Assembly (NCBI GenBank): GCA_005880575.1
Contig: VBIZ01000115.1
Span: 1 to 46,995, forward strand
Direction of reading: 5' to 3'
DNA from: Chloroflexota bacterium
GTDB lineage: Bacteria; Chloroflexota; Limnocylindria; P2-11E
Length of the DNA stretch: 46,995 nucleotides
Both the position numbers and the translations under genes were made by a program. This document shows, one piece after another, positions 43,028 through 45,205 of this stretch (the stretch's first letter is position 1; the number at the start of each line of letters is the position of its first letter). The notes under the pieces were generated by a model, which saw only the letters and a program-made list of their open reading frames with translations, searched no databases and was not told the origin of the DNA.

Positions 43028-43051
43028 CGCGGCCCTCCTTGGTCGGCCGCG
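43028..43051 (+). terminator. Hairpin after the DM13 gene
   Basis: CGCGGCC (43028-43034) pairs with GGCCGCG (43045-43051) around a 10-nt loop. No T-run follows; it lies 15 bp before the endonuclease III start and may be a weak terminator. Confidence 0.3.
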
Positions 43052-43065
43052 AGTATGGTTCAGCG

Positions 43066-43812
43066 ATGCCCGCGCGGCCCAAGCGACAAAAGCCCCGCGC
43101 GCCGGTCCGCCCCGATCCCGCGCTTCGTTCACGCGCCCGGAAGATCTTGACCCGTCTCGCGAAGGCCTACCCCGACTGGGGGCCAACGCTCCGCTTCTCC
43201 TCTCCCTTGGAGCTCCTCGTCGCGACGATCCTCGCGGCGCAGGCGCAGGACGAGCGCATCAACGAGGTCACCCGTGTGCTTTTCACCAAGTACCGGACCC
43301 CCGCGGACTACGCCGCGGCGCCGGCCGGGGTCCTCGAGCGCGACATCAAGGCAACGGGCTTCTACAACCAGAAGGCGAAGTCGCTACGCGCGATGGCCCG
43401 AGGCCTCCTCGAGGAGTTCGCGGGAGAGGTCCCGTCGGACATGGACGGCCTCACGCGGCTGCATGGAGTCGGTCGCAAGACGGCATCGATCGTCCTCGGA
43501 GCGGCCTTTGGAGTCCCCGCGGTGGCGGTCGACCGCCACGTCGCCCGCGTCGCGGAGCGGCTTCGGTTCGACCGAGCGGGCCCCGACATCGAGGCGAGCC
43601 TCCGGGCGATCTATCCGAAAAAGGACTGGGTCAAAGCGACGTGGTGCTTCGTTCTTCATGGCCGTCGTATCTGTAGGCCGACCCCGCTCTGTCCGATGTG
43701 TCCGATCAACGACCTTTGCCCATACCCGAAGAAGACGAAGACGCTGCCCGCGGCGCTGCGATCCAGCCGGCCAGAGCTGCCACGAACAGCAGCAGCGCGT
43801 CGCCCGCGATGA
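43066..43812 (+). CDS. nth: Endonuclease III family DNA glycosylase, copy 1
   Basis: 248 residues from ATG 43066 (TTG 43039 is possible). Helix-hairpin-helix LHGVGRKTASIVLGAAFGVP with the catalytic Lys, and AVDRHVARVAERL with the catalytic Asp. The [4Fe-4S] loop reads CRPTPLCPMCPINDLC: the first spacing is five rather than the usual six residues, otherwise Cx2Cx5C is normal. It removes oxidised pyrimidines in base excision repair. A basic Lys/Pro N-terminus and an Arg-rich tail flank the core; the tail overlaps an opposing ORF. Confidence 0.92.
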   Translation: MPARPKRQKPRAPVRPDPALRSRARKILTRLAKAYPDWGPTLRFSSPLELLVATILAAQAQDERINEVTRVLFTKYRTPADYAAAPAGVLERDIKATGFYNQKAKSLRAMARGLLEEFAGEVPSDMDGLTRLHGVGRKTASIVLGAAFGVPAVAVDRHVARVAERLRFDRAGPDIEASLRAIYPKKDWVKATWCFVLHGRRICRPTPLCPMCPINDLCPYPKKTKTLPAALRSSRPELPRTAAARRPR

Positions 43813-44113
43813 TCGAAATACCCTCCGCCACGCCGACGCCGGCGGGCTCGAACGGAGCCGGCGCCAGACCGATCGCCTCGACCACCACATAGCCCACTCC
43901 CACGAGCGCGCCGTGGTAGAGACCGGCATTTTTGGCCAGTTTTCCGGCTAAATACGCGCCGAGGGCGATACCACAAAGCGGCGCGGCGATACCAAAGATC
44001 GATGCGCCGGGAAAGGCGCCGAGGCGGAGGACGGTCGCGGAAGTCGCCGCGACGAGGACGCCCGCGGCTACCGCGAGCTGGTGGATCGGTGGGACGGAGC
44101 GTTGCGGTGCGAT
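43706..44113 (-). CDS. Putative four-helix membrane protein, no canonical start
   Basis: The minus-strand frame ending at TGA 43706-43708 is open from beyond 44113 and encodes four hydrophobic segments: LAVAAGVLVAATSATVL, IFGIAAPLCGIALGAYLAG, ALVGVGYVVVEAIGLA and IIAGDALLLFVAALAGWIAA. A frame in a GC-rich genome seldom keeps four membrane helices by chance. The first canonical codon, GTG 43901-43903, would drop two helices; ATC 44111-44113 with GAGG just upstream is the likeliest start (135 residues). The last 36 codons overlap the 3' end of nth on the other strand. No family recognised. Confidence 0.45.
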   Translation of the reverse strand: MAPQRSVPPIHQLAVAAGVLVAATSATVLRLGAFPGASIFGIAAPLCGIALGAYLAGKLAKNAGLYHGALVGVGYVVVEAIGLAPAPFEPAGVGVAEGISIIAGDALLLFVAALAGWIAAPRAASSSSSGMGKGR

Positions 44114-44131: not shown

Positions 44132-44169
44132 ACAAAAAGAAACCGATCCGCGAGGCCTACGCGGATCGG
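44132..44169 (-). terminator. Rho-independent terminator 2 after the Lys-rich micro-gene
   Basis: On the minus strand a perfect 10-bp stem (CCGATCCGCG with CGCGGATCGG, 44143-44169) and 7-nt loop are followed by TTTCTTTTTGT. It lies just upstream of the four-helix membrane frame. Confidence 0.75.
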
Positions 44170-44200
44170 CGGGTTCGCGAAAGGTGCCAGACTCGAAATC

Positions 44201-44226
44201 AAAAAAGCGACGACTGTCGTCGTCGC
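44201..44226 (-). terminator. Rho-independent terminator 1 after the Lys-rich micro-gene
   Basis: On the minus strand GCGACGAC-GACA-GTCGTCGC forms a perfect 8-bp stem with a 4-nt loop, followed by TTTTTT. It begins 10 bp after the micro-gene stop, a compact textbook terminator. Confidence 0.85.
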
Positions 44227-44236
44227 CAAGACAACC

Positions 44237-44284
44237 TTAGTGCTTCTTCTTCGAGGACTTCTTCGCCTTCTTCTTTGCTGGCAT
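44237..44284 (-). CDS. 15-residue lysine-rich micro-protein
   Basis: ATG 44282-44284 to TAA 44237-44239 encodes MPAKKKAKKSSKKKH: eight lysines of fifteen residues. Support for translation is strong: a 12-nt Shine-Dalgarno fully complementary to the conserved 16S rRNA tail lies four bases upstream, a near-consensus promoter precedes it, and two terminators follow. A basic peptide this short could bind rRNA, tRNA, DNA or acidic surfaces, like tiny ribosomal proteins or histone H1-like tails; I recognise no family. Confidence 0.7.
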   Translation of the reverse strand: MPAKKKAKKSSKKKH

Positions 44285-44288
44285 CAGT

Positions 44289-44300
44289 GGATCACCTCCT
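44289..44300 (-). promoter_or_regulatory. Full-length Shine-Dalgarno of the micro-gene
   Basis: AGGAGGTGATCC on the minus strand is the exact complement of the conserved end of bacterial 16S rRNA (GGATCACCTCCT). Typical sites pair four to seven bases; here all twelve can pair. Confidence 0.8.
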
Positions 44301-44320
44301 CCTGGCCACTCATTGACGGT

Positions 44321-44351
44321 TATATAGACACACTCACGTCATTGATGTCAA
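44321..44351 (-). promoter_or_regulatory. Near-consensus sigma-70 promoter of the micro-gene
   Basis: On the minus strand TTGACA (44346-44351) is followed after 17-19 bp by TCTATATA (44321-44328), giving TCTATA, CTATAT or TATATA as the -10. The predicted start is near 44314, with a leader of about 30 nt carrying the long Shine-Dalgarno. Confidence 0.65.
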
Positions 44352-44371: not shown

Positions 44372-44614
44372 TCAGGCGGTCGTCGGTGGAACGTCGCTCC
44401 GCAAACGCTCCGCGACGCGTCGTCGGAGCTCCGCGGGAGCGACATCGGACGTCCCGCAGTCGCGGATGACCTTCAGGAAGCGCTCCTCGAAGGCGAGATT
44501 GTCCCCGCAGTCGGTGCATCCTTCGAGATGGCTCGCCACTTGTTTACGCTCGTTTGACCCGAGCTCCTGGTCGAGGAACGCATAGAGCTTCTCGAGGCAA
44601 TCGTCGCAGTCCAT
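44372..44614 (-). CDS. rsrA: RsrA-like zinc-binding anti-sigma factor
   Basis: 80 residues. The ZAS motif HLEGCTDCGDNL (HxxxCxxC) is preceded by CDDCLEKLYAFLDQELGSNE and followed by a helix FEERFLKVIRDCG, ending in VAPAELRRRVAERLRSD. This matches RsrA, in which oxidation forms a disulfide, expels zinc and frees SigR. It follows the sigma gene by 9 bp, the usual sigma/anti-sigma order. Confidence 0.88.
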   Translation of the reverse strand: MDCDDCLEKLYAFLDQELGSNERKQVASHLEGCTDCGDNLAFEERFLKVIRDCGTSDVAPAELRRRVAERLRSDVPPTTA

Positions 44615-44623
44615 CCCGCCCTC

Positions 44624-45205
44624 CTAGTCCGGTCCCTGCCCGCTGGTGCGAAGCGCGGCGATCCCACGCTCGCGGGCGACCTCCACGAGCCGCTGCTGAA
44701 GGAACTTACGCCCGCGGTGAAGCCTGGACATCACCGTCCCGATCGGCACTCCGACCATCTCGGCGATCTCCTTATAGGAGAAACCCTCGACGTCCAGCAG
44801 CACCGTGGTCCGGAACTTCTCCGGCAGGGCCGCAAGGGCGTCCTTCACCTCGCTCGAAACGATCCCGTCGAGAAATTCCTTCTCCGGATCAGACGAATTC
44901 GACCCCGGGGTCTGCTGGGACATCCGGCGGTAGAGCGAGAACTCGTCGACGTCGTCCAGCTCGGCCGTCTGGGGCTGCCGGGATCGTTTCCGGTACGCGT
45001 TGATAAAGGTGTTCGTCAGGATGCGGAAGAGCCAAGCCTTGAGGTTGGTCCCCGGCGTGAACTGCTCGCGAAAGCGGAGGGCGCGGATATATGTCTCCTG
45101 CACGAGATCTTCGGCGTCCGCCTCCGATCGGGTCATCCGGAGTGCCGTTCGGTAGAGCGCATCGATATAGGAGAGCGCCTCGGTCTCGAACGCGTCCTCG
45201 GCCAT
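44624..45205 (-). CDS. sigR: ECF sigma factor, SigR-like
   Basis: 193 residues. Region 2: [20 protein letters not shown] and [20 protein letters not shown] with [20 protein letters not shown]. Region 4: [50 protein letters not shown]. These are the SigR (thiol-stress) group features. ATG 45203-45205 lies 17 bp after a perfect SigR-type promoter, so the pair is autoregulated. It would transcribe thiol-oxidative stress genes such as thioredoxins. Divergent from the second nth. Confidence 0.92.

Follow-up and report, generated by a model that had tools for sequence, protein, structure and literature searches.

What function could a gene of only 15 codons, eight of them for lysine, serve in an uncultured Chloroflexota bacterium? 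The question was raised by an earlier note on a 46,995-nt stretch of DNA (assembly GCA_005880575.1, contig VBIZ01000115.1, positions 1 to 46,995; hereafter the window), in which a Lys-rich micro-open reading frame (micro-ORF) was picked out. The frame lies on the minus strand at 44284-44237 (DNA ATGCCAGCAAAGAAGAAGGCGAAGAAGTCCTCGAAGAAGAAGCACTAA; 15 codons plus stop) and encodes MPAKKKAKKSSKKKH*. With moderate confidence, we read this locus as one of two paralogous genes for a strongly translated, polycationic microprotein, whose mRNA would pair through its 3′ untranslated region (3′UTR) with the rplL mRNA and would thus be coupled to ribosome synthesis.

Conservation and Coding Potential of the Micro-ORF

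The genomes compared were fragmentary metagenome assemblies of uncultured Chloroflexota. A DNA search retrieved the micro-gene unit or its paralogue from 28 of the 29 genomes of the order (nine genera, two families), whereas the genomes sampled from the three remaining families of the class gave no match. With a strict pattern, 27 of 177 class genomes matched, every one of them in this order, and reversed-pattern controls gave 0 matches; the unit was present in all 27 order genomes whose assembly includes the locus. This conservation across the order excludes chance as the origin of the unit.

Lack of codon-level conservation in relatives had been set beforehand by the earlier note as grounds for refuting its proposal. 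Among 45 ORFs, comprising 27 from this locus (class A) and 18 from the paralogue (class B), length changes (12-20 aa) were exclusively in-frame and the stop was retained; the class A ORFs ranged from 13 to 20 codons, always in frame, and variation in codons 2-6 consisted mainly of silent third-position changes. ORFs of the sister family start with GTG. Lysine accounted for 418 of the 701 residues after the initial methionine (249 of 423 in class A) and was encoded by AAG in 412 of 418 cases (99%; in class A, 245 AAG and 4 AAA), a preference likewise found in the ribosomal-protein (r-protein) genes of relatives. With its reading frame conserved and its variation of the coding type, the micro-ORF is shown by this comparison to be a real, conserved protein-coding gene, with a promoter of its own and a strong Shine-Dalgarno (SD) sequence. 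The idea of a compact Lys-rich micro-gene that escapes annotation because of its small size and is probably translated strongly was therefore supported by its conservation in relatives.

The peptides contain approximately 60% Lys over the family, and it is this composition, not the exact residue order, which is retained. Since selection has kept Lys content and net charge rather than order or length, the peptide is probably a disordered, trans-acting polycation with nucleic acid as its target, rRNA/ribosomes or nucleoid DNA being the likeliest; in view of the composition, an association with nucleic acid or ribosomes is plausible. A strictly ribosomal protein, present as a stoichiometric subunit and specific to its clade as mycobacterial bL37 is, would also be small, basic and served by a strong SD sequence, and the sequence link to the rplL mRNA described below would suit it. 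We nevertheless consider this quite improbable, as the sequence is of low complexity, variable in length and devoid of the fixed residues needed by a buried r-protein. Furthermore, no similarity to any solved chain was found (PDB, E 10), which is a weak test for such a short, low-complexity query.

Expression Signals and Terminators

All signals described here lie on the minus strand, and the arrangement reported in the earlier note was confirmed, with the corrections given below. The −35 box TTGACA (44346-44351) belongs to a TTGACAT conserved in 26 of 26 family genomes. In the −10 region TGTGTCTATATA (44321-44332), TGTGTCT is kept in most of the family and the exact hexamer is uncertain, the candidates being TCTATA at 17 nt from the −35 box and TATATA at 19 nt, neither of which is textbook. 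A consensus promoter scan called no promoter at the micro-gene locus, which we attribute to the unusual −10. The pattern TTGACA-N12-14-TGTGTCTA had a single occurrence in each of 11 genomes, and in all of them this was at the micro-gene locus.

Between TGTGTCTATATA and the ORF, the sense strand reads GTGGCCAGGAGGAGGTGATCCACTG, and the 12-nt SD sequence GGAGGTGATCCA is located at 44288-44299. In relatives, the 16S rRNA ends in ...CGGCTGGATCACCTCCTTTCT, i.e., terminal TGGATCACCTCCTTTCT, and GGAGGTGATCCA is therefore an exact 12-nt complement of the 16S 3′ end TGGATCACCTCC. The perfect match that had been claimed was thereby confirmed, though as a genus-level trait, the family-wide conserved core being GG(A/G)GGTGAT. 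The 2.7-Mb assembly holds two copies of GGAGGTGATCCA, the second without a short Lys ORF downstream. Expression of the micro-gene is probably high. At 44309-44280, a conserved GTGGCC ahead of the SD sequence can pair with GCC of codons 1-2, which places the SD sequence in a small predicted hairpin.

The exact complementarity to the 16S tail also favors a reading in which the peptide is incidental and the RNA serves to titrate ribosomes or 30S subunits; a ribosome-titrating RNA had been suggested in the earlier note. This reading was not supported and seems to us scarcely credible: outside the genus, the 12-nt match is no longer complete, while the frame, its Lys content and charge, and the 3′UTR are kept throughout the order, and ORFs of a similar kind are found in other phyla.

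Regarding termination, the hairpin T1 followed by TTTTTT (44201-44226) corresponds to the immediate textbook terminator that had been described, and the hairpin recurs in relatives. Its T-run, however, is found in this genus and is absent in several others, and the order-wide terminator is the more distal T2 (44169-44134; CCGATCCGCG-TAGGCCT-CGCGGATCGG-TTTCTTTTT). Across 12 distinct T2 sequences, 100% of cells in the 10-bp stem were paired, three of the pairs being compensatory, and the loop retained GGCC. A search with Rfam covariance models matched no relevant family.

Antisense Match between the Micro-Gene and rplL 3′UTRs

The paralogue, the conservation of T2 and an antisense match to the rplL mRNA go beyond the earlier note. 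Just ahead of T2 lies a 26-nt element, TGGCACCTTTCGCGAACCCGCCGATC (minus strand, 44164-44189), which recurs once more per genome in the opposite sense, in the rplL 3′UTR, approximately 110-195 nt past the stop codon and immediately before the terminator; the partner copy (G000:C201 from 1345, locus L111) is situated outside the window. The extended site has only two occurrences per genome. All family genomes in which rplL is assembled carry the partner element, and the 7 genomes without the partner also lack rplL in their assembly. The match had sharp borders in 20 of 20 genomes holding both loci, and in the sister family it was unbroken across 28 nt. Given that the copies stand in opposite sense in two transcripts, the micro-gene and rplJ-rplL mRNAs are complementary in trans. 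While the match is established as sequence, its function can be stated only as probable. The predicted duplex reached −49 to −59 kcal/mol, whereas 1000 shuffles averaged −20 and gave −33 at best.

The way in which the two copies differ within a genome is of particular relevance. At five positions (24 cells), the difference always placed a micro-gene U opposite an rplL G, and the reverse, pair-breaking C/A direction was never observed at these positions; the copy differences were all G·U-compatible, the exceptions being two central positions and one flank. In addition, both copies changed jointly at position 16 (G to A, genus g7) and at position −1 (G to A, genome G022 and the sister family). 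As the cells compared are not independent events, this evidence for selected pairing is strong and not conclusive. The predicted transcript of the ORF would thus carry a conserved segment for pairing with a trans-encoded mRNA, as in dual-function RNAs.

An alternative is that the peptide alone matters and that the micro-gene and rplL merely share a DNA site that works in either orientation, e.g., an insulator or a protein roadblock next to strong terminators. In its favor, both copies adjoin terminators, and the central mismatch described below persists in the family. Nonetheless, we regard this alternative as unlikely, because differences outside the center and position −1 are all G·U-compatible (24 cells, 5 positions, 0 reverse), because only two extended sites exist per genome, and because the opposite sense of the copies in the transcripts fits RNA pairing and not a shared RNA motif.

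Several observations weigh against the pairing that we favor. In every family genome with both copies, these are mismatched at a single central position (12 or 13), a mismatch that the sister family lacks. An A/C at position −1 breaks the pair in G002 and G010. In predicted folds, the element is just partly single-stranded, and where T1 terminates efficiently, much of the transcript would stop ahead of it. The match could, moreover, be a DNA-binding site shared in opposite orientation. Finally, the low complexity of the peptide prevents a homology search for function.

Autoregulation through intramolecular pairing of the SD sequence with the element was also considered; such pairing was strong in the sister family alone and close to zero in most family genomes, and it was rejected as a general mechanism. 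As a separate observation, GCACCUUUCG (minus strand, 44187-44178, within the antisense element) could pair over 10 bp, with one G·U, with 16S helix 45 CGGAAGGUGC, a match not distinguished from chance.

Proposed Mechanism

The antisense tails suggest that production of the peptide and of ribosomes is coupled. The micro-gene and rplJ-rplL mRNAs would pair with each other in a long duplex on which RNase III would probably act, and this duplex may link the micro-gene to the synthesis of L10/L12. Hfq was not found in the 29 genomes (ProQ was not searched for), which is in keeping with a long, chaperone-independent duplex. Because the pairing reaches into the T2 stem and covers its initial six bases (CCGATC), control of the micro-gene mRNA by the rplL 3′UTR RNA is the likelier direction; the latter could loosen T2 or expose the micro-gene message to RNase III. 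The reverse direction, in which a dual-function mRNA/small RNA would act on the rplL mRNA, is nearly as likely.

A wider model, which we advance only tentatively, is that of an Hfq-free 'tail-to-tail' antisense pair, in which the mRNAs for the peptide and for L10/L12 would be in mutual control via the 26-nt 3′UTR duplex at the foot of both terminators, and in which the peptide would belong to a pan-bacterial, largely unrecognized class of minimal Lys/Ala microproteins whose target is the ribosome or the nucleoid. A case like this, in which the mRNAs of a small basic peptide and of a ribosomal protein are linked by a conserved antisense match in trans, would be rare and evolutionarily testable, here in a group scored Hfq-negative over 29 genomes.

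Paralogue and Similar Micro-ORFs in Other Phyla

The class B paralogue is a second Lys-rich micro-ORF (G000:C200 from 20393, locus L075; further class B loci are L029, L030, L040, L042, L046, L048, L051, L053, L054, L057-L059, L065 and L076-L078). At the loci examined, it sits directly behind an excisionase/BldC-like HTH gene, and it has a strong SD sequence of its own and no obvious promoter. Downstream, a conserved hairpin without a T-run (GCGCCGC-GGGCGG-GCGGCGC, loop GGGCGG) shows a compensating stem change, GCGCCGT/ACGGCGC, in the sister family.

Beyond the order, micro-ORFs with strong SD sequences that start with MPAKKKA or MAAKKKA were found, among the matches listed, in Verrucomicrobia, Eisenbacteria, Methylomirabilota, Acidobacteria, Nitrospirae, Patescibacteria, other Chloroflexota and DPANN archaea; many of these listed matches had 11-35 codons, and many had T-run terminators. 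Sequences of such low complexity do not allow a claim of common ancestry, and the finding points to a minimal Lys/Ala microprotein class spread over many phyla. No neighbor gene shared by the micro-ORFs across phyla was found when looked for, and a trans-acting product is therefore likely.

In Eisenbacteria, the micro-genes (MAAKKKAAKKKATKKKAAKKKK and near variants; L120, L127, L133, L135, L157 and L170) have a conserved 3′UTR motif, CTGGACCTGGCACGTCCTGA, just ahead of a hairpin/terminator. A second genomic copy of this motif (TGGCACGTCCTG) was sought, and the motif proved to be mostly single copy per genome; consequently, the rplL link is confined to the present order as far as shown. Tandem pairs of Lys/Ala micro-ORFs, each with a separate strong SD sequence on one transcript-like stretch, were seen at L136 and L188 (both Nitrospirae) and at L210.

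Gene Neighborhood

Upstream of the micro-gene, on the same strand, are conserved genes for a zf-HC2 anti-sigma-like protein (44372-44614) and an ECF-type sigma factor (44624-45205). Downstream, also on the minus strand, lies a gene for a DUF3792-like membrane protein (43706-44113; score below the gathering threshold, 5′ end uncertain), convergent to which is a gene for an endonuclease III-like HhH-GPD protein (plus strand, 43039-43812). The order endonuclease III, ECF sigma, zf-HC2, micro-gene, DUF3792-like protein, endonuclease III is stable in relatives, the DUF3792-like protein being unrecognized in some genera. The frame of the latter begins shortly after T2, and no ATG, GTG or TTG is present near its conserved start.

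The succession of a Lys-rich ORF, terminators and a same-strand gene could call to mind a leader peptide or attenuator that senses Lys codons on behalf of the DUF3792-like gene. This is very improbable in our opinion, given that the downstream gene is not a lysine gene and goes unrecognized in several relatives, that the paralogue and the relatives in other phyla have different or opposite-strand downstream genes, and that no alternative antiterminator pairing was seen. In line with this, a conserved downstream gene from the pathway of the encoded amino acid was found neither at this locus nor at the paralogue or in other phyla.

Comparison with Known Systems

With regard to the peptide, histone H1-like Hc2 (PMC2848022) and AlgP (PMC9239181) are likewise low-complexity, Lys/Ala-rich polycations with in-frame length variation, and the micro-gene peptides share their Lys/Ala-dominated composition. 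Unlike Hc2 (165-237 aa), however, the micro-gene peptide has 12-20 aa and matched no family model, and peptides of 20-43 aa gave no Pfam or NCBIfam match. Mycobacterial bL37 (24 aa; PMC5876184) is similarly a tiny, previously unidentified, clade-specific protein, but it adopts a defined fold in an rRNA pocket, whereas the micro-gene peptide retains composition and not sequence.

As for the RNA, SgrS/SgrT and VcdRP/VcdP (PMC4021124, PMC8672173) also combine a small ORF and a base-pairing segment on one short transcript; in contrast to these, the partner found for the micro-gene is the rplJL 3′UTR instead of a translation start, and the two are complementary over a long, almost perfect stretch. 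The closest precedent for the micro-gene/rplL pair is RaiZ of Salmonella, the 3′-end RNA of the ribosome-inactivation gene raiA, which pairs with the hupA mRNA for the histone-like protein HU-alpha (PMC5391140). There too, one partner stems from the 3′ end of a ribosome-factor mRNA, the other is the message for a small basic protein that binds nucleic acid, and the two pair in trans over 23 bases. In the present case, by contrast, Hfq was not found (ProQ not searched for), and the near-perfect match of 26-28 nt joins two 3′UTRs just before both terminators.
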